53,969 nt of DNA, from the IMG/VR virus record IMGVR_UViG_3300018080_000224, positions 1-53,969 of that record. One strand, written 5' to 3'. The translations under genes were made by a program, and so were the position numbers. The notes beneath the pieces are model-generated. The model was not told the origin of the DNA, did not search any database, and saw only the letters and a list, made by a program, of their open reading frames with translations. Within the stretch, counting starts at the first letter, position 1; every line of letters begins with the position of its first letter. Shown piece by piece: positions 3,465 through 53,969 of this stretch. Source of the DNA: a virus.

Positions 3465-4155
3465 AAGACTACTAATAGTATTATTAATATGTTTTTCAGC
3501 TACTGCTAAAGATAAACTTAAAGTTATGGTGCTTGATACCGGAGCAGATAAGAAAAACACATATATAATGAAACATATACCAAAGGATTACGAATTTCAT
3601 CAAGACGAAAACGGACATGGTACTAGTATTTCTTGGTTTATACTGAAGGACGCTTGCGAAGAAGTGGAACTTTACCCGTGTAAATTCTACGGAGTAAAAT
3701 ACTATATTAATAATATAGAAAGATTGGTAGATTGTTTAGAACATGCTAATATGTTAGATATTGATATCATAAATTTGTCAGGCGGAGGTAGATCGCCTTA
3801 TAAATCTGAAAAAGAGTGGATATCAAAATTCCTAAAAAAAAGAGGAAGACTATTTATAGCCGCTGCTGGAAACAATAATCAAGATTTAGATAAAAATCCA
3901 TATTACCCCGCCAGCTATAGGATTGACGGACTTAGGGTTGTAGGTGCTTTGGACCCAAAAACGAAGAAAAGAGCTTCATATAGTAGCTACGCTGATTGGA
4001 TAGTGTGGGAAATTGGTACTGCTAATTCTTTTGGTTTAAATTATAAAAGTACAATTATTAGCGGAACTTCAGTATCTACTGCTATTTATACTGGAAAGAT
4101 AGTAAAGAGGTGGTGTGAAAAAAGGAGAAAAAATGCCATACATCAAAAAAAATAA
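3460..4155 (+). CDS. Secreted subtilisin-like serine protease (S8), ATT start
   Basis: 231 aa if started at ATT 3460. The first ATG in frame is at 3526, but that would cut off the N-terminus just before the catalytic Asp. From 3460 the protein begins (f)MKRLLIVLLICFSATA, a textbook signal peptide with an A-x-A cleavage site. GGAGAGG (3448-3454) lies 5 bases before ATT, and no ATG, GTG or TTG exists between the upstream in-frame stop (3439) and 3526. The triad is visible: Asp26 (VLDTGAD), His53 (GHGTS) and Ser204 (SGTSVS), with oxyanion Asn138 (AAAGNN). There is no propeptide. The substrate is unknown: a host surface protein, a competing phage or self-processing are all possible. Confidence 0.8.
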   Translation: MKRLLIVLLICFSATAKDKLKVMVLDTGADKKNTYIMKHIPKDYEFHQDENGHGTSISWFILKDACEEVELYPCKFYGVKYYINNIERLVDCLEHANMLDIDIINLSGGGRSPYKSEKEWISKFLKKRGRLFIAAAGNNNQDLDKNPYYPASYRIDGLRVVGALDPKTKKRASYSSYADWIVWEIGTANSFGLNYKSTIISGTSVSTAIYTGKIVKRWCEKRRKNAIHQKK

Positions 4156-5499: not shown

Positions 5500-5822
5500 A
5501 GAAATCAGAAAAAATATTATTAGCAGTACTAGTAGTACTTTTAGCAGTTACAGTGTGGTTCCATTTCCACCCTAAAAATAGTTTTGAACCTAACGACTGT
5601 ATAGCGACTTTAGGTAAGAATCAAAACATATATACATTTTGGGTAGTAGATTATAATAAAGATATAGATAAGTATTTGATGTGGTTTTATAATAAGGAAA
5701 GAATAGAACTTCCGATAGTAATTAATGCTGATATTATAGATAAAACTTCGGAAAAAGTAGATTGCCCTCTATATCTGCAACAAAGAATAGATAAAAAGGA
5801 GCCGAAAAATGTCCAATGGTGA
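5496..5822 (+). CDS. Membrane-anchored FExxDCI-domain protein
   Basis: 108 aa. One N-terminal membrane helix (about residues 7-23) is followed by a periplasm-type domain with F-E-x-x-D-C-I, then a Tyr/Trp-rich core (YLMWFYN) and K-V-D-C near the C-terminus. The same order of motifs is seen in the lipoprotein encoded at 2163, so the two are probably paralogs anchored in different ways. GGAGG precedes the start. Confidence 0.5.
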   Translation: MKKSEKILLAVLVVLLAVTVWFHFHPKNSFEPNDCIATLGKNQNIYTFWVVDYNKDIDKYLMWFYNKERIELPIVINADIIDKTSEKVDCPLYLQQRIDKKEPKNVQW

Positions 5823-6243
5823 TAAATACGGGCACTGGATAGCCACCGGTTCTAGTACAACTACTGGAAATAGTATTACTGTTACGTCTACTCCTAACGG
5901 CAATAATTACCAATATATGACCTGCGACGACGACGGCACAATATTAGTTTACACTACTGACGGTACTGGAGGATTAACGACGTGTTCGAACATGCCTAGA
6001 ACAGAAAATGTCTACCAATCTCCAGATTATGAAGGAGAATCTCTAACAGGTCCAGAAGACAAAATATGTACGAAGTGTAAAGAAACTGTTCCAGACCATA
6101 AAGTAGCCGCTTCATACGGCTACAGAAAAATAGCCAAACACGTATGTCATAAATGTTATATAAAACAACTAGATAAACAATTTGGAATAGAAGAATCAGT
6201 AGATATAGAAGATGTACTATATGGCGAAAAAGAAGAAAATTAG
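5809..6243 (+). CDS. Zinc-ribbon protein with Ser/Thr-rich N-terminus
   Basis: 144 aa. The first 60 residues are rich in Ser, Thr, Gly and Asn and look unstructured or beta-rich. A four-cysteine ribbon follows: CTKC (about 87-90) and CHKC (about 113-116). The C-terminus reads VDIEDVLYGEKEEN. The next gene is a shorter paralog with the same ribbon and ending. The TATGGC that encodes its YG pair also contains the ATG of that paralog. Confidence 0.55.
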   Translation: MSNGDKYGHWIATGSSTTTGNSITVTSTPNGNNYQYMTCDDDGTILVYTTDGTGGLTTCSNMPRTENVYQSPDYEGESLTGPEDKICTKCKETVPDHKVAASYGYRKIAKHVCHKCYIKQLDKQFGIEESVDIEDVLYGEKEEN

Positions 6244-6526
6244 GTCAACTACAGCTAGTTTTAATAATTCTCTTAATAATAATACTAGTATTGGAACTAC
6301 TGAACCAGGAAATTTAACTATTCATACAGATAGTACAGATATTATTATTTATGGAGAAAAAGAAGGGGTGTGCGATTCTTGTAAAGAAATTAAACAGCTA
6401 TCTTTAGGATTTAAGTTTAGTGCTATAGAAAGAAAAATATGTGGTCGTTGTTTGAATATGAAAATAGATAAGATGTTTAAGACGGGAATGGATGTGGATT
6501 TTGAAGAGGTGTTGTATGATGACTAA
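6221..6526 (+). CDS. Zinc-ribbon protein, paralog of the preceding gene
   Basis: 101 aa. I choose ATG 6221, which lies inside the upstream gene's LYG codons, over ATG 6212. A basic start (MAKKKKIRS) and a Ser/Asn/Thr-rich segment precede CDSC and CGRC pairs. The end VDFEEVLYDD parallels VDIEDVLYG of its neighbour. It is the last clear gene of the + strand cluster. Its stop overlaps an ATG that opens only a 20-codon frame. Confidence 0.5.
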   Translation: MAKKKKIRSTTASFNNSLNNNTSIGTTEPGNLTIHTDSTDIIIYGEKEGVCDSCKEIKQLSLGFKFSAIERKICGRCLNMKIDKMFKTGMDVDFEEVLYDD

Positions 6527-46031: not shown

Positions 46032-46739
46032 TTAAAATATTAACTGCTTCGCTTTCTCGGTAAGAATATCCATATTATATTTTTCATATAACTCTGGATA
46101 TCTACTATCATATTGTAAATCAATTTTATATAACATATCTGGAATAATATACTTTTTTATAATTTCTCTAAATTTACGAAAATTAGTTGAATTAAATTCT
46201 ATATAATATTTAATTCCACCTGTTTTTATAGAACTATAAATTTTGATATGTATATTCCATTTATCTTTAAAATATTTTTTAATTAGTAAATGTTCTTCAT
46301 ATGTAAATGACATTGACCAAATTCTAGCTCTTCTAGATTTAATTTTAGTCTTATCAAATTTATCTTTTTGTAAACACAGTTGTCCATCATCCATATACCA
46401 AAGTGCTAATCCTAGAGGTGTTAATTTTTTTAGTATTTTTTTAGTAACGATTTTTGTTTTGTTTTTGTAGAATATTTTATGTAATTTTGTAAAATATTTT
46501 AAAGAATTAGTATTTAATTGATAATCGCCCCTTAAAGATTGTTTTAAATTAACTTTAACGGGATGTATTTGTTTTAATATTTTTTCTTTAAACTCTATCA
46601 GTTGTTTTTGTTCTTTACAATGAGAACATTTAAAATATCCGTTGTGTGTTAGTTTTTTTCTAACTATACTAGAATCTCCTAGTAAAGTACCAAAAACAAA
46701 TCCATCTAATTGAGAACTTGATAGAGAATTTATATTCAC
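46032..46739 (-). CDS. LAGLIDADG homing endonuclease inside the intron
   Basis: 235 aa, GTG start with AAAGGGA about 9 bases upstream. Two LAGLIDADG-like helices are visible: FVFGTLLGDSS (residues about 14-24) and LALWYMDDGQL (about 112-122). It ends 3 bases before the S element. It would cut intron-less portal genes at the exon junction and so spread the intron. A promoter in the intron may serve it. Confidence 0.85.
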   Translation of the reverse strand: MNINSLSSSQLDGFVFGTLLGDSSIVRKKLTHNGYFKCSHCKEQKQLIEFKEKILKQIHPVKVNLKQSLRGDYQLNTNSLKYFTKLHKIFYKNKTKIVTKKILKKLTPLGLALWYMDDGQLCLQKDKFDKTKIKSRRARIWSMSFTYEEHLLIKKYFKDKWNIHIKIYSSIKTGGIKYYIEFNSTNFRKFREIIKKYIIPDMLYKIDLQYDSRYPELYEKYNMDILTEKAKQLIF

Positions 46740-48094: not shown

Positions 48095-50908
48095 TTAAAA
48101 CCCTTTAAATGTTGCAAAAAATTGATTTCTGTCGTGAAATATGTAAACCATTAAATATCTAATAGCATCAATTAAACCTTCATATCCCTCTGGTGTTTCT
48201 TCGTAATCTTCTTTAAGTCCGCCATTTTTTGTTCTTTTGAATCTAGCAGAACTTAAGGCATAGATAGTATTAACGCAATTCTTAGAAACAAAAAACTTAG
48301 GTAAAGTTTCTTGTTCGCCATCAGAGTTTAATTTCGGTTTACCTCTTTCATCAAATTGTGGAAACTGCATCCACAATCTAATCATATTTCCACCTGTTTC
48401 TCTGTCTTGTTTAAGACCCACAGGACTTCTATTTAAAACTTCCTTAAAATCGTCCCAAGCAGCTCTTCCATTTAACTGCCTCTGTTTTCCTGAAATATCA
48501 GCCACAATTTCTGTAAATTTTATGTGATGCCTATATTTCATTTCCTGGCATTGATCTTGCCAAATTTTAAGAGCTGTCCTACTTAATTCTCCCTCTTTAT
48601 CTGCTATCTGCTGAGCTTGCATATATGATGTTGTAGTTTGTGTGAATCTCTCATCAAAAATGATAATATCTTCATTTGAGTTTATTTGTGCAAATATTGT
48701 AGATGCTGGTCTAGCAAAGTTATGATCACATGCTGCGTACACTGGCCCGTTGTCTGGGTGCCAAATATAATCTATTACATTTGGATATAAATTAAGATCT
48801 GTTTTCTTTTCTATAAATCCAGGAAAACAAGAATCAGCAATTGATTCGAAATCAGCTAAATATTCTTGCTTAAACTTTTGAGCTTTACCAGATAATACTG
48901 CTCTTCTATAAGCAGAATCAATTTCTTCCTTTGATTTGTCTGGACTAGAAGCTAATAGTGGATTATCGTAACTAGTTTTTTGAAAAGAACTCCATTCCCT
49001 ACTATCGTTAGTAGTTCCTGTTTCTTCATTAAAAATTATTTGTTCGCTGCCACTTCTTTGAGATTTACCAAGTTGTCCAAATAAAAATAATTTATAAAAA
49101 GTGTTTTTACCACGAGGAGTACTAATAAAAATTGCACTACCTTCTTTATCCATCAGTGTTGGCTGAAGCATTTGAGTCCATATGTCGTCTAACTTAGGCT
49201 CAAGAGCAGCTTCATCAACAATTACTAAATCATTTGCTTCTCCAGCTAACGAATCTGGGTTCTCCATAGATTTGGCTTCTAAAACTGAACCCCAAGGTGT
49301 TTCTAAATAATAATCACCTTTTTGGTTCCTAGCTCTTCCGCCTCCAGGTTTTCCTGGTTTAATTATCCTTAGCTGAGTTACTAATATACTATAAAGTTCT
49401 CTAAATACCTTTTCGCATAGTCCGTAGTCAGGAGCAACTATCCATACTCGCCTATTCATTTGCATCAATACGGCTAGAGCTGCCAACACAACTAAAAAAG
49501 TATTATGTTCTAAACAATCACTTATGTAATTATGATATATAGGAACAGATAACCCAGCAGTTGCTTTTTCTCCAACAAACTCAATAGAAACTATTTCATC
49601 CCAATATCCAGGAATATTTATAATTTTTCGTTCTTCTTTAAATTGCTCAGGAAATTTATCACAATAAAATAAAAGTTTATTCCGACCAGCCGCTCGATCA
49701 GGCCTTACTCTACCTACTAAAGTTTTCTCTTGTTCTCGATAAGAAATTAAACTCTTTAGTTTATTTGCAAACTCATAACAAAATTCTTTAGGTATAGTAT
49801 TAAGTTGAGAATTAAAACTACCTTTAGTATGAGTTAAAACTTCATCAAATTTATCTTCTTTACCTAGTATACCTACTAATTCTACAAATTTTCTTATTTC
49901 TAAATAATTATGTATTTTTAACTGGTAAGCTACATTACCTCTCCAACGTCCTAATTTTAGGATTTTAGTTTCAAAATTACTGACAATTCCCAATCTAGCT
50001 AGTAATCTTTTAACTCCTTGAGTCAATTTAAAAGAAACAGAGCAATATCCTATTTCGTTATTAGAAACCCAACCGTCTGTAGCAAACAGTCTATTTAAAA
50101 ATAGTGCTATTTGGTCATTTGGCGCAGTATAAATATAATTAGGTATAAATTTTGTATGAGAACTTGTACCGGCTAGTCCAGTATCTTCAATAACCTGATA
50201 TATAGAATTATTTATATGTAGATGATAATCTTTTGCTTTATTATTTTCTTGCTGAGTTATTCTATAAGTTCCATCAAGTAATTCTATAAATCTTTTTTCT
50301 ATAATTGGATTAGCTACGGAAAATGAGTAATACTTTTGAGTTAGACACCCATCGCCTAATAAAAGTCCTAAAAGTTCTATATATTTTGAGTTTTTCCTGT
50401 CTTTGCCCCTATGTGGGAGTTGATTAGGAACCAGAACTCTCATTCCAGATTTTAACTCTTCTATGGATTTCCACCCAAAAGAAGTAAATAGTGGATGATT
50501 AGCAGTTCGTAATAATTCCAATCCATACTTAGTTTTTACCTTATATACAGGTTTTATGTTGTTATCTACACAAGTTGCTTTAGTTCTAATTAATTTAAAA
50601 TTTTCATCAACTGAATTAACATAAAATTCTTTTCCTATTAGATTCCCATAAGTTTCTACTGACCCATCAGCTAAAATTAACTCCTCATCTATACATCCGC
50701 ATTTACCAAAACGTCGACCACAAGCTAAAACCTTGAATCTAGCATCATCATTGAGTATATCTATGTGAGCATCATGAAGAGGTTGTATTGTTTTACCTTG
50801 AGTTGTTCTTATATTTTTTTCATTAAGATAATTAGCTAATTCTCGTATATTTAGGTCGTGTATTCTTAGTGGTTTACCTTCTGTATTATTCGTCTTCATC
50901 TTTTCCAT
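48095..50908 (-). CDS. Terminase large subunit, interrupted by an intein
   Basis: 937 aa precursor, 537 aa after splicing. The ATPase has GRRFGK (Walker A, residues 64-69), then the intein (70-469), then TFLVVLAALA. Walker B is VIVDEAA with Asp565-Glu566. The nuclease domain shows ACDHNFARP, VADISGKQR and GLIDAIRYL, with the expected acidic residues. It overlaps the putative small-terminase gene by 23 bases. The enzyme drives and cuts DNA during packaging, and is inactive until the intein removes itself. Confidence 0.9.
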   Translation of the reverse strand: MEKMKTNNTEGKPLRIHDLNIRELANYLNEKNIRTTQGKTIQPLHDAHIDILNDDARFKVLACGRRFGKCGCIDEELILADGSVETYGNLIGKEFYVNSVDENFKLIRTKATCVDNNIKPVYKVKTKYGLELLRTANHPLFTSFGWKSIEELKSGMRVLVPNQLPHRGKDRKNSKYIELLGLLLGDGCLTQKYYSFSVANPIIEKRFIELLDGTYRITQQENNKAKDYHLHINNSIYQVIEDTGLAGTSSHTKFIPNYIYTAPNDQIALFLNRLFATDGWVSNNEIGYCSVSFKLTQGVKRLLARLGIVSNFETKILKLGRWRGNVAYQLKIHNYLEIRKFVELVGILGKEDKFDEVLTHTKGSFNSQLNTIPKEFCYEFANKLKSLISYREQEKTLVGRVRPDRAAGRNKLLFYCDKFPEQFKEERKIINIPGYWDEIVSIEFVGEKATAGLSVPIYHNYISDCLEHNTFLVVLAALAVLMQMNRRVWIVAPDYGLCEKVFRELYSILVTQLRIIKPGKPGGGRARNQKGDYYLETPWGSVLEAKSMENPDSLAGEANDLVIVDEAALEPKLDDIWTQMLQPTLMDKEGSAIFISTPRGKNTFYKLFLFGQLGKSQRSGSEQIIFNEETGTTNDSREWSSFQKTSYDNPLLASSPDKSKEEIDSAYRRAVLSGKAQKFKQEYLADFESIADSCFPGFIEKKTDLNLYPNVIDYIWHPDNGPVYAACDHNFARPASTIFAQINSNEDIIIFDERFTQTTTSYMQAQQIADKEGELSRTALKIWQDQCQEMKYRHHIKFTEIVADISGKQRQLNGRAAWDDFKEVLNRSPVGLKQDRETGGNMIRLWMQFPQFDERGKPKLNSDGEQETLPKFFVSKNCVNTIYALSSARFKRTKNGGLKEDYEETPEGYEGLIDAIRYLMVYIFHDRNQFFATFKGF
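49502..50701 (-). mobile_element. LAGLIDADG intein in the Walker A motif
   Basis: 400 residues. Cys1 follows the Walker A Lys. Block B has T-A-N-H. Two LAGLIDADG motifs are visible, LLGLLLGDG and LFATDGW. The end has VPIYHNYISDC and the final His-Asn, followed by Thr, the +1 residue and also the Thr of the P-loop. All splicing residues are intact. This is a known hot spot for phage terminase inteins. Confidence 0.9.
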
Positions 50909-51437
50909 GTAAAACCTTGTTTATTTCTCTAAACTTCTCAAGGGTTCCGTCTGTGAAATCGACTTTATCAGTATAATCTCCACTAAGAGTGAGCCAAATC
51001 TTTGCAGCAGAAGTATCTCTTTCTACTCCTCTTTTATGCAAAGCATTAATCATTTCCATTCTATTCTCATGAGTAAAAAGTCCAGTTTCCTGAATCTTTT
51101 TCCAAATGGCTTCTCCCCATCCATCTTTTTTCATCCATGCTCTAATAGAAGCTACTTTAGGTATGCTTTCTAGCAGTAATTTTTGTAGTTCTTCTTCTAA
51201 TTTGTATCTTTTCTTTATTTCAAGCTCTAATTCTCTTATTAGCTGCGGTACTCTGGGTAGGACTTCTGGATTAGCTATGGTGTGCGACGCTATGATTTCT
51301 TGTAGAGTTTCTTGGACTAAATCCCATTCTGCGTTCCCACTAAGCTGTTTTACTGCTCTACGTGCTTCTAATTTAATAACAGCATTCTTAGAAGCTTCTT
51401 TATTAACTTTGGTTTTAGTGGAATCTTTATCAGACAT
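50886..51437 (-). CDS. Putative terminase small subunit
   Basis: 183 aa, helical and charged. The end SAAKIWLTLSGDYTDKVDF resembles small terminase or DNA-binding proteins of the phBC6A51 type. It lies directly upstream of TerL, overlapping by 23 bases. It would recognise phage DNA for packaging. The assignment rests on location and this segment. Confidence 0.6.
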   Translation of the reverse strand: MSDKDSTKTKVNKEASKNAVIKLEARRAVKQLSGNAEWDLVQETLQEIIASHTIANPEVLPRVPQLIRELELEIKKRYKLEEELQKLLLESIPKVASIRAWMKKDGWGEAIWKKIQETGLFTHENRMEMINALHKRGVERDTSAAKIWLTLSGDYTDKVDFTDGTLEKFREINKVLHGKDEDE

Positions 51438-51751
51438 TACTTTTTCTTATTTTTTTTAGATTTCTTTTTAGATTCGCATTTTTCGGAACATTCTTCTGGA
51501 CAGTCGTCGTCACACTCTTCGCATTTCTCTTCAATTTCAACAGGTTTAGATGCTACTGGTTTCTCTACTAAAAGTTTATCTGGACTTTGTAAAAAACTTG
51601 TTTTGCACTTTTTGCCCATACACTTTTTAGGCTTTAAATCAGCCCATGAAGCTAGTATAGATGTCTGCCAGCCGCAATCTTTACATTTATAAACTATCCT
51701 TTGATTTTCTTTTATTCCGTATTTATAGCTTTTATCAGCCAAATTCTTCAT
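51437..51751 (-). CDS. Zinc-ribbon protein with Cys-rich acidic tail
   Basis: 104 aa. A ribbon, CKDC and CMGKKC (residues about 23-50), is followed by a second Cys/Glu-rich segment (CEECDDDCPEECSEKC) and a Lys tail. GAGGAG lies 4 bases before the ATG. It is the first gene of the late operon after the terminator hairpin, so it may control or be controlled with it. Function unknown. Confidence 0.55.
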   Translation of the reverse strand: MKNLADKSYKYGIKENQRIVYKCKDCGWQTSILASWADLKPKKCMGKKCKTSFLQSPDKLLVEKPVASKPVEIEEKCEECDDDCPEECSEKCESKKKSKKNKKK

Positions 51752-52002: not shown

Positions 52003-52293
52003 CTAACAAACGAAACCGTGAATACTGTCTTCAGGCATAATGCCCGTTAACATTGTATTCGGATCAAATACTGTCGCTAGTTGCCCGTGAGAGATTCTGT
52101 ACAGAAGTTTTAACTTCTTTCTAACACACTGTTTTTTAATAATATTAAGTTCTTGTGGTGTTGCGTAGTCTCCATCAGCATCAGGCAAGGCAACTACCTG
52201 TATTTTCCGAGTTTTTGCCACTGTTTCGTAAAAAAGCACCTCAAATTCTATATCTTGTTTGAGGCTCTTTAAATCTTTATATTTAGTAGTCAT
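52003..52293 (-). CDS. Hypothetical protein upstream of the late operon
   Basis: 96 aa. A helical start (YKDLKSLKQDIEFEVLFYE) and a basic middle (IIKKQCVRKKLKLLYRI) suggest binding to nucleic acid or protein. It has its own promoter and its transcript ends at the 51775-51810 terminator, so it is expressed separately and may be a regulator. Confidence 0.5.
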   Translation of the reverse strand: MTTKYKDLKSLKQDIEFEVLFYETVAKTRKIQVVALPDADGDYATPQELNIIKKQCVRKKLKLLYRISHGQLATVFDPNTMLTGIMPEDSIHGFVC

Positions 52294-52397: not shown

Positions 52398-52679
52398 TTA
52401 TTCTTTGTAGAGAATTTCCCACCATTCATCTGTACTAATTTCTGAAAATTTTGAAAGAAAATTATAACTAAGATCTATACGAATTCCTGTTTCTAAATCA
52501 CTTAATTGATCTATAGGTTTTCCGTTCTTTACTTTTCGGTGGAATAAAAGCACTACTTCATATCCGTCAGGGTCTAAATTCTTTCTTCTAATCAATACTT
52601 TACACACTTTTACTATAGCTTCCTCGCTTGGAGTCCTAATATGCACTAAATCTCCAACTATATAAGGTCTATTAGCCAT
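52398..52679 (-). CDS. WxxILY-family small protein, member 6
   Basis: 93 aa. N-terminal IVGDLVHI is the G-D-x-[VI] motif of the family, and the end is EWWEILYKE. It overlaps the upstream member in ATGGCTAA. The Tyr codon here is TAC, so its motif does not create an ATG, and no family member follows. The beta-rich start suggests an SH3-like barrel; function unknown. Confidence 0.55.
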   Translation of the reverse strand: MANRPYIVGDLVHIRTPSEEAIVKVCKVLIRRKNLDPDGYEVVLLFHRKVKNGKPIDQLSDLETGIRIDLSYNFLSKFSEISTDEWWEILYKE

Positions 52680-52926
52680 ATAAAATGTCCCAAAACTCTG
52701 TTTTTGTTAGCTTTTTTACACTATGGTCGTTGAAATAACCTTTGGAATACAGCATGTCAGTAGAAATATTAACATGTTCATAGTCTAATTCTCTGGGACA
52801 ATACACAATTTTAGTATAAAAACTATCATATTTATTAGTACTATAGTTAAGTAGCTTTAATATTACATGAAATTTATGTTTTTCTGACACAACCTCAACA
52901 TAATCGCCTGGTTTAAATTTAGTCAT
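52672..52926 (-). CDS. WxxILY-family small protein, member 5
   Basis: 84 aa. FKPGDYVEVV at the start and EFWDILYG at the end. Both ends overlap neighbours: its ATG is in the upstream gene's last codons (ATGACTAA) and its own TAT GGC TAA contains the next ATG. There is no separate ribosome site, so translation by re-initiation is likely. Confidence 0.55.
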   Translation of the reverse strand: MTKFKPGDYVEVVSEKHKFHVILKLLNYSTNKYDSFYTKIVYCPRELDYEHVNISTDMLYSKGYFNDHSVKKLTKTEFWDILYG

Positions 52927-53206
52927 ACAGTAATTTTGTCCAATCCCTTTTGTCTTTACTTAACACATCAATTTCACTGTGGTTACTTAAATTATCAAAA
53001 CTTAGGAATGCTAACCTATCATCTGCAATATCATTTTCTATAAAAAATCCTTTATTTACGAGTATTTTAGCCTTAAAATAAGGATTAATTGCCCATTCTG
53101 GCTCAAAACTATAAGTTTCTGTGCCTACTACTTCAACAATTGCCCACGAGGACAAAGTCAGCGTCGAATCTAAACGAATGTAATTGCCGTCTCTAAACCA
53201 ATTCAT
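52919..53206 (-). CDS. WxxILY-family small protein, member 4, leaderless start
   Basis: 95 aa from ATG 53206. A GTG at 53221 is in frame but lies inside the promoter and disrupts the family start; from 53206 the protein reads MNWFRDGNYIRL, like FKPGDYVEV of its neighbours. The -10 box ends 6 bases before the ATG, so the mRNA would begin at or next to the start codon. The end is DWTKLLYD, with TAT GAC TAA overlapping the next gene. Confidence 0.6.
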   Translation of the reverse strand: MNWFRDGNYIRLDSTLTLSSWAIVEVVGTETYSFEPEWAINPYFKAKILVNKGFFIENDIADDRLAFLSFDNLSNHSEIDVLSKDKRDWTKLLYD

Positions 53207-53212
53207 ACTATA

Positions 53213-53241
53213 AGTATACACTATTTATATTTAAATGTCAA
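53213..53241 (-). promoter_or_regulatory. Strong sigma70-type promoter
   Basis: TTGACA (53236-53241), 17 bases, TATACT (53213-53218). It matches the consensus at 11 of 12 positions. It begins 5 bases after the T-run of the upstream terminator and points to the member-4 gene whose ATG lies at the expected transcription start. Confidence 0.75.
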
Positions 53242-53246
53242 GCTTT

Positions 53247-53340
53247 AAAAAAAATCGCCCAGGATAGCTTCTGAACTAACTGCGAAGCCCTAGGCCTGCT
53301 TCGCAAGCCCAGAGGCCGGCACAGGGCCAATAAATGGAAA
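53247..53340 (-). terminator. GC-rich compound terminator with alternative hairpin
   Basis: On the - strand, GCCTAGG (53289-53295) pairs with CCTGGGC (53257-53263) and GCTTC (53284-53288) with GAAGC (53267-53271), followed by eight T (53247-53254). An upstream alternative, GCGAAGC (53298-53304) with GCTTCGC (53282-53288), uses the same bases and would break the terminator. The region from 53281 to 53330 is much richer in GC than the genome around it. Confidence 0.65.
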
Positions 53341-53559
53341 TTAAGGGGTATTGTATTCTCGTCCGTAAAGTATTTGTGCCCATGTGGAAACCTCCTTCAA
53401 CTTCCCAATGGCCTTTGAGCACATCCCTATATCACTTTTACTTTTAATAGTAATAAATTCATAAGGAAAAGCACCTCTTTTATTAAATTTTCTATATATC
53501 ATAACTATTCCCAATTCGTCCTTATAAACCCTACCTATCTTTAACTCTTTAATTTCCAT
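53341..53559 (-). CDS. WxxILY-family small protein, member 3
   Basis: 72 aa, with ELKIGRVYKD at the start and TWAQILYGREYNTP at the end. The Tyr codon is TAC, so no ATG arises and the tail is extended by six residues; a terminator follows. Its own ATG lies in the TATGGA of the upstream gene. Confidence 0.55.
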   Translation of the reverse strand: MEIKELKIGRVYKDELGIVMIYRKFNKRGAFPYEFITIKSKSDIGMCSKAIGKLKEVSTWAQILYGREYNTP

Positions 53560-53785
53560 AAAGAATTTCAGCCCACTCCTTATCTTTTCCTACATAGATT
53601 CCATAACTATCTATAAAATGACAATCAATATCTGCAGTTCTACCAACCATAGAACTTAGACAATACGTTTCCTCTGTTGAAAACCAAGCATTTTCAGTAG
53701 TAATACCACTACCTATAATCCTAACTAAATAATTACTAGAATCCCAACTAATATAAATAATATCACCACTCTTAAACTTAGCCAT
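53549..53785 (-). CDS. WxxILY-family small protein, member 2
   Basis: 78 aa from ATG 53785, which has GGAGG 7 bases upstream. That GGAGG is made by the TGG AGG codons of member 1's C-terminal motif. FKSGDIIYISW at the start, EWAEILYGN at the end; the TATGGA supplies the next ATG. A longer frame from 53815 is less likely. Confidence 0.6.
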   Translation of the reverse strand: MAKFKSGDIIYISWDSSNYLVRIIGSGITTENAWFSTEETYCLSSMVGRTADIDCHFIDSYGIYVGKDKEWAEILYGN

Positions 53786-53936
53786 GCAGTAGCCTCCACA
53801 TCTCGGCTTCCTCACTTTTAGGGTCTAACTGTATAATTTGCTCACACCTCAAAGCACCAGAATCATAACTATTACAACTAGTTATTATTACTATTACTAC
53901 ATCTTTGTGTATTTCGATTATTATTGTCTTATCCAA
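53778..53936 (-). CDS. WxxILY-family small protein, member 1 (short, TTG start)
   Basis: 52 aa. TTG 53936 has AAGGA about 9 bases upstream and lies in the last codons of the gene before (TTGGATAA). The C-terminus is EMWRLLHG, and CAT GGC TAA contains the next gene's ATG. The N-terminal half (IIIEIHKDVVIVIITS) is beta-like but lacks the usual G-D motif, so this member is shortened or diverged. Confidence 0.5.
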   Translation of the reverse strand: MDKTIIIEIHKDVVIVIITSCNSYDSGALRCEQIIQLDPKSEEAEMWRLLHG

Positions 53937-53969
53937 AGTATAGTATCCTTGCTAGTTCTTGGTCTTCTA
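53929..53969 (-). CDS. WxxILY-family member, 3' end only
   Basis: The frame enters at the right edge and reads EDQELARILYFG before TAA. It keeps the hydrophobic [IL]LY-G ending, with Leu or Ala in place of the Trp. Its TTT GGA TAA contains the TTG start of the next gene. It shows that the array continues beyond the window. Confidence 0.45.
   Translation of the reverse strand, partial: EDQELARILYFG

Follow-up and report, generated by a model that had tools for sequence, protein, structure and literature searches.

Seven minus-strand frames at 52398-53969 of the window, by which we mean the whole 53,969-base IMG/VR virus record analysed here, its ends being open, finish in tails resembling W/F-x-x-[IL]-L-Y-G; a preliminary description of this DNA had claimed seven such frames, and all are present in the sequence. 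Only the C-terminal part of member 1 (53929-53967) lies inside the window edge, with the tail ...LARILYFG, i.e. ...EDQELARILYFG, directly before its stop codon. Its TTT-GGA is the source of the TTG start of member 2 (53778-53936, 52 aa), which ends in AEMWRLLHG (53781-53807). Member 3 (53549-53785, 78 aa) carries FKSGDII at its N-terminus and KEWAEILYGN (53552-53581) at its end, and it belongs to one sequence family with L046:2645-2878. Member 4 (53341-53559, 72 aa) has the C-terminal end WAQILYGREYNTP and the tail STWAQILYGREYNTP (53344-53388), in which the Tyr codon is TAC and no overlap follows. Member 5 (52919-53206, 95 aa from its ATG) bears FRDGNYI and ends in RDWTKLLYD (52922-52948), member 6 (52672-52926, 84 aa) bears FKPGDYV and ends in TEFWDILYG (52675-52701), and member 7 (52398-52679, 93 aa) bears YIVGDLV and ends in DEWWEILYKE (52401-52430), again with a TAC codon for Tyr and no overlap. 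At the position of the Trp in the tail motif described earlier, F, M or L also occur. A protein search with member 6 found no relatives, and Pfam and PHROGs searches with the window members and 83 tail proteins gave almost no matches.

The five overlaps within the array are all exact (TTGGATAA, CATGGCTAA, TATGGAAATTAA, TATGACTAA and TATGGCTAA), and each begins at an NTG made of the aromatic codon of the tail and the G that follows, in agreement with the earlier reading that the start of the next gene lies in the tail codons. The first junction uses a Phe codon (TTT-G) and so has a TTG start; junctions of this class are seen again in relatives. The GGAGG previously read in the Trp-Arg codons was also found, as TGG-AGG yields it 7 nt ahead of the next ATG. 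It had been stated further that no member follows where the Tyr codon is TAC. TAC does exclude an overlapping follower, but member 5 follows the TAC-bearing member 4 at 134 nt downstream, without overlap and with a sigma-70-like promoter of its own between members 4 and 5 (TTGACA-17-TATACT, 53213-53241, minus strand), which is a consensus match only, at 11/12 positions.

The window contains markers of a contractile-tailed phage, namely a tail sheath protein (phrog_23), a major head protein (phrog_212) and TerL. Its TerL relatives in IMG/VR showed 58-72% identity, and since the longest of these records reach 97-115 kb, the window is probably about half of a genome. Searches with TerL and the major capsid protein found no close cultured relative, all being below 60% identity and the best among the matches listed lying at 25-30%; scanning non-viral genomes with TerL gave zero matches, including none in a bacterial genome. 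The TerL gene of the window (48095-50908, minus strand) carries an intein-like insertion, its product having 937 aa versus the open frames of 534-550 aa in relatives; the insertion begins with CGCIDEELILADG, finishes with LEHN and splits the Walker A motif as GK|T. A putative LAGLIDADG-type homing endonuclease (46032-46739, minus strand) has an ORF starting with MNINSLSSSQLDGFVFGTLLGD, and a subtilisin-like serine protease is encoded at 3526-4155 on the plus strand (phrog_3677, E=1e-19). Directly upstream of the presumed small terminase (TerS, 50886-51437, minus strand) lie genes on the same strand for a protein of about 96 aa and a CxxC zinc-ribbon protein with KPKxC (52003-52293 and 51437-51751, respectively), and most relatives with sufficient contig reach have similar proteins at the same places.

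On the plus strand, a zinc-ribbon-like protein (5809-6243, CxxC...CxxC) ends in the tail VDIEDVLYGEKEEN (6199-6240; ...DVLYGEKEEN before the stop), and its orthologs at L062:14558-14884 and L049:5987-6502 are tailed as well. The ATG of a second zinc-ribbon-like protein (6221-6526, tail VDFEEVLYDD at 6494-6523) sits within the TAT-G of that tail, an overlap like those in the array. These tails and their overlap indicate that the feature also exists outside the array. Nor are the tails a product of chance: each weight matrix was trained solely on families absent from the tested genome, and a gene was scored against a 99% internal null. For the window, 6 of 69 genes exceeded this null when 0.7 were expected (p=7e-5); other genomes gave 29 versus 1.6 (G009), 29 versus 1.1 (G004) and 15 versus 0.3 (G032), and p ranged from 7e-5 to 2e-32 over the nine genomes tested. 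IMG/VR was also searched for the motif as exact DNA, TGGGANATHYTNTAYGGNTAA; the 20 matches lie in frames no longer than 28 codons and were attributed to chance.

TerL led to 22 loci, in which many small genes upstream of TerS/TerL, on both strands, end in x-[AVI]-[LIM]-[YF]-[GDEK], typically as LYG, wherever the contig extends far enough. Nine records were retrieved in stretches. In the 22 genome groups, with near-identical genomes grouped by hand, several records being fragments and genes called uncurated by one simple script, 183 of 1431 genes had a tail versus 25 expected from random internal cuts of the same proteins. Most of the TerL relatives examined (at least 58% identity) bore it on 8-25% of called genes, for example 25/125 in G004 and 17/69 in G001. 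Tails are scattered genome-wide on both strands and occur throughout the clade, so they are not only a feature of one local array. Fresh in-clade contigs from a wider TerL scan had 12 tailed genes among 137 (1.4 expected). Relatives with a TerL identity of 39-41% had none among 88 genes, more distant TerL outgroups had 5/641 versus 6.4 expected, and no tail excess was detected in T4, SPO1, a Rhizobium phage or the 20 random viral contigs, which were those from the exact-motif scan. The excess within the clade and its absence in TerL relatives at 39-41% identity or beyond indicate that the tail is a derived trait of this phage clade. We did not find a description of such a tail in the open-licence literature.

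The tail is held at the protein level. With tails removed, the carriers fell into 132 sequence families, 27 of them occurring in at least two genome records. In ortholog pairs identity was 30% over the protein body, 92% at the tail Leu and 62% at the aromatic residue, where Y and F alternate. When tails of different families in one genome were compared, synonymous codons agreed at 0.395 versus 0.355 expected, and at 0.29 versus 0.27 for the tail Leu; all six Leu codons occur in the seven window tails. Synonymous codon use near background argues against copying of DNA, and gene conversion of tail DNA was rejected because overall synonymous identity is near expectation. At tail position -2 the synonymous identity was 0.51 versus 0.35 expected, an excess that fits Shine-Dalgarno selection, although shared ancestry could be an alternative. 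The tail Tyr is followed by 0 to about 8 residues.

The tail also differs between lineages. The window version is [DE]-[WF]-x-[ED]-[IV]-L-Y-G, that of G003/G004 and relatives is E-L-x-[KE]-A-[IL]-Y-[EG], and those of G009, G001 and G013 are A-x-[EK]-V-L-[YF]-G, A-x-K-V-L-[YF]-G and [ML]-x-x-L-L-Y-G, respectively. Tails of unrelated families were 36% identical within a genome versus 27.5% between genomes (0/500 permutations), and the adjoining upstream segment used as a control gave 7.4% versus 6.7%. The effect was weaker in families from at least two lineages (52 tails; within-family permutation 76/2000), so ancient lineage-specific duplication could explain part of it; such deep paralogy with conserved tails is the main alternative here. 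Lineage versions shared by unrelated proteins would be expected of a single co-evolving docking partner, as far as the sequences suggest.

We consider it rather probable that this peptide serves as a short linear tag for docking, carried at the C-terminus by dozens of small proteins unrelated to one another. The tag would probably form an amphipathic helix of about ten residues at the very end of the protein, one that ends in [AVIL]-L-[YF]-[GED] and often begins with P-x-[TGS]-[ED]. All tagged proteins of one phage would dock through it to one common partner, either a protein of the phage itself or one of the host that the phage controls, and docking might gather small effectors of various kinds at a single place or machine, by analogy with the T4 capsid targeting sequence (CTS). 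The CTS is N-terminal and is carried by few proteins, which sets the tail system outside the T4 capsid targeting type: all carriers have the shared peptide at the C-terminus, rather than an N-terminal peptide removed by a prohead protease, it is found on as many as about 25% of a contig's called genes, and its codons also serve as the start of the following gene. The likeness is that diverse small phage proteins have nothing in common but a short terminal peptide, here on otherwise unrelated small proteins of 132 families and several folds. Among the T4 internal proteins, which are defence proteins of diverse kinds, only the short CTS is shared (PMC3012670). The CTS sends them to one place, and a common destination for the tailed proteins would be the counterpart by analogy.

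A special case of docking, in which the tagged proteins would attach to the core or portal of the prohead and be injected with the DNA, has these T4 proteins as its closest precedent, and several arrays adjoin TerS/TerL. We nevertheless regard it as unlikely, because the head genes are distant from many of the tagged genes and neither a cleavage motif nor a link to a scaffold was found. The TerS C-terminus, [FY]REIN[KE][IV]LH, is vaguely tail-like, but in 15 of 16 genomes its tail score stays below the 99% null, and it was rejected as a tail. As separate observations, this TerS end is kept across the clade, and its CAT-G is able to provide the TerL start codon in the window and L038.

The tail could instead be the final structural element of a single ancient SH3-like barrel superfamily, now too diverged to be recognised, and be conserved for structure and not for docking. 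The N-termini of the array had suggested one small barrel fold, and most carriers do look like small SH3-like barrels, judging from an N-terminal pattern and one modelled family. The loose, GD-type pattern G-[D/N..]-x-[VIL] occurs in about 190 of 219 tail proteins, and the modelled family (14 sequences) gave an SH3-like barrel of four to five strands (pLDDT 76), with the tail as a helix directly after the last strand. However, this helix is the lowest-confidence part of the model (pLDDT about 50-70), and the same tail is borne by proteins of unrelated folds, so that a barrel does not hold for every carrier: zinc ribbons, found conserved across three distant genomes (their structure model was too poor for use), the protein at L064:17454-18014 with a DUF6011 zinc module (PF19474, E=6e-9), and helical and membrane-type proteins. 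Foldseek matched the barrel model to SH3/KOW folds with a best E of 0.036 in the PDB and 0.0035 among viral models, where the matches are predicted small phage barrels of 52-68 aa that match as barrels, the tail carriers adding the C-terminal helix. The main carriers thus share a predicted SH3-like/KOW-type fold with small barrels such as Streptomyces phage Belfort A0A7T8C5S8, HspQ (5ycq), the eIF5A N-domain and R67 DHFR. At the sequence level the barrel carriers belong to no named family by Pfam, the near-hits of tail proteins (CarD_TRCF_RID, SH3_12 and uL24m) being below curated cut-offs. Since a fold constraint would not predict lineage versions either, we find the structural explanation improbable. 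The DUF6011 carrier runs about 50 aa past the module and ends in the tail, whereas its homolog in Pseudomonas phage tabernarius ends right after the zinc module and is tail-less.

The preliminary description had suggested that the motif may be kept partly because it carries translational coupling, to be tested by whether TAT rather than TAC predicts a following member; this test holds. The start of the next gene and its Shine-Dalgarno sequence within the end of the preceding gene were found for 99 of 235 non-redundant tails, counting following ORFs of at least 40 codons; 61 of the proteins downstream of start-supplying tails carry a tail themselves by the strict pattern. Where a GNN codon follows, tail Tyr was TAT in 95 of 115 cases (83%), while internal Tyr ahead of G was TAT in 53% (p=1.4e-10). 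Of these 95 TAT-G tails, 84 open an ORF of at least 40 codons; internal TATG does so in 29 of 701 instances. No TAT bias was seen for tail Tyr without a following G (68% versus 67%), and TTT-G (as a TTG start) and CAT-G also serve as tail starts. Behind tail genes the prevailing overlaps are those of 8, 11, 14, 17, 20 and 23 nt. Shine-Dalgarno matches are stronger in overlapping tails, partly through synonymous choice: Lys, Glu or Gln codons at position -3 before GNN end in G in 39/46 overlapping tails and 22/42 others, against a background of 17.5%, and these G-ending codons write AAGG/GAGG about 6 nt ahead of the ATG. As in overlapping stop/start coupling, the downstream start lies within the last codons of the upstream gene (PMC12548453). 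The commonest bacterial arrangement is a -4 NTGA overlap (PMC12548453), from which the 8-23 nt tail overlaps differ, since a codon of the conserved peptide holds the start.

If the motif were mainly a translational-coupling cassette, the peptide would be a by-product of placing a Shine-Dalgarno sequence and a start at the gene end. The TAT excess, the ORFs opened by TAT-G tails, the stronger Shine-Dalgarno matches in overlaps and the codon choice at -3 favour this, but more than half of the 235 tails are not overlapped by another gene, 10 of 23 non-TerS families from multiple genomes keep the tail both with and without a start-supplying overlap, and Leu is written with all six of its codons. 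Asn/Asp codons would be equally usable; non-tail overlaps use mostly Asn (63), while tails keep Tyr/Phe. Coupling as the main cause of the motif is therefore already largely refuted, and we hold it to be very unlikely: tails persist without overlap in the same families and on unrelated folds. It stands as a second layer upon the probable docking tag. As Tyr/Phe/His-Gly is written TAT/TTT/CAT-G, the peptide holds an NTG, used as the next gene's start in about half of the cases, and synonymous choice at -3 puts an AGG-type Shine-Dalgarno sequence about 6 nt upstream, so that neighbouring tagged genes are packed with 8-23 nt overlaps and are probably translationally coupled. The suggested growth of the array by duplication of a gene-plus-junction unit was contradicted, as none of 96 adjacent tail pairs belongs to one family (phmmer E<1e-3).

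A C-terminal degron making early phage proteins short-lived, for which the Lon signal at the SulA C-terminus is the comparison, would suit a hydrophobic-aromatic C-terminus on many small, probably early proteins, but it is highly improbable, as the tails, unlike end-specific degrons, have 0 to about 8 often charged residues behind them and lineage versions would require a changing protease.

As a tentative extension of the docking tag, one hub protein per lineage may read the lineage-specific peptide, acquisition of the tag may admit any small protein, and the tag codons may start the next gene; tagged genes would then be added one after another, with new functions plugged in by tag acquisition. 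Large phages have many small genes without an assigned function and with no handle for grouping them, and a ten-residue peptide here brings as many as a quarter of a contig's called genes into one system, with one partner as its direct prediction. If the reading is true, one short stretch of DNA would act as protein motif, ribosome-binding site and start codon at about a hundred junctions, an unusual case in which such dual coding lets two layers of selection be separated.

The densest array seen was in G004 (L068/L069), where about 20 tail-bearing small barrels lie on one strand as a lineage-specific expansion that includes paralogous groups of 7, 7 and 5. In L089, used only as a fresh test contig, a TerL relative with 67% identity lies at 164-1181, and the first four tail genes follow close behind.
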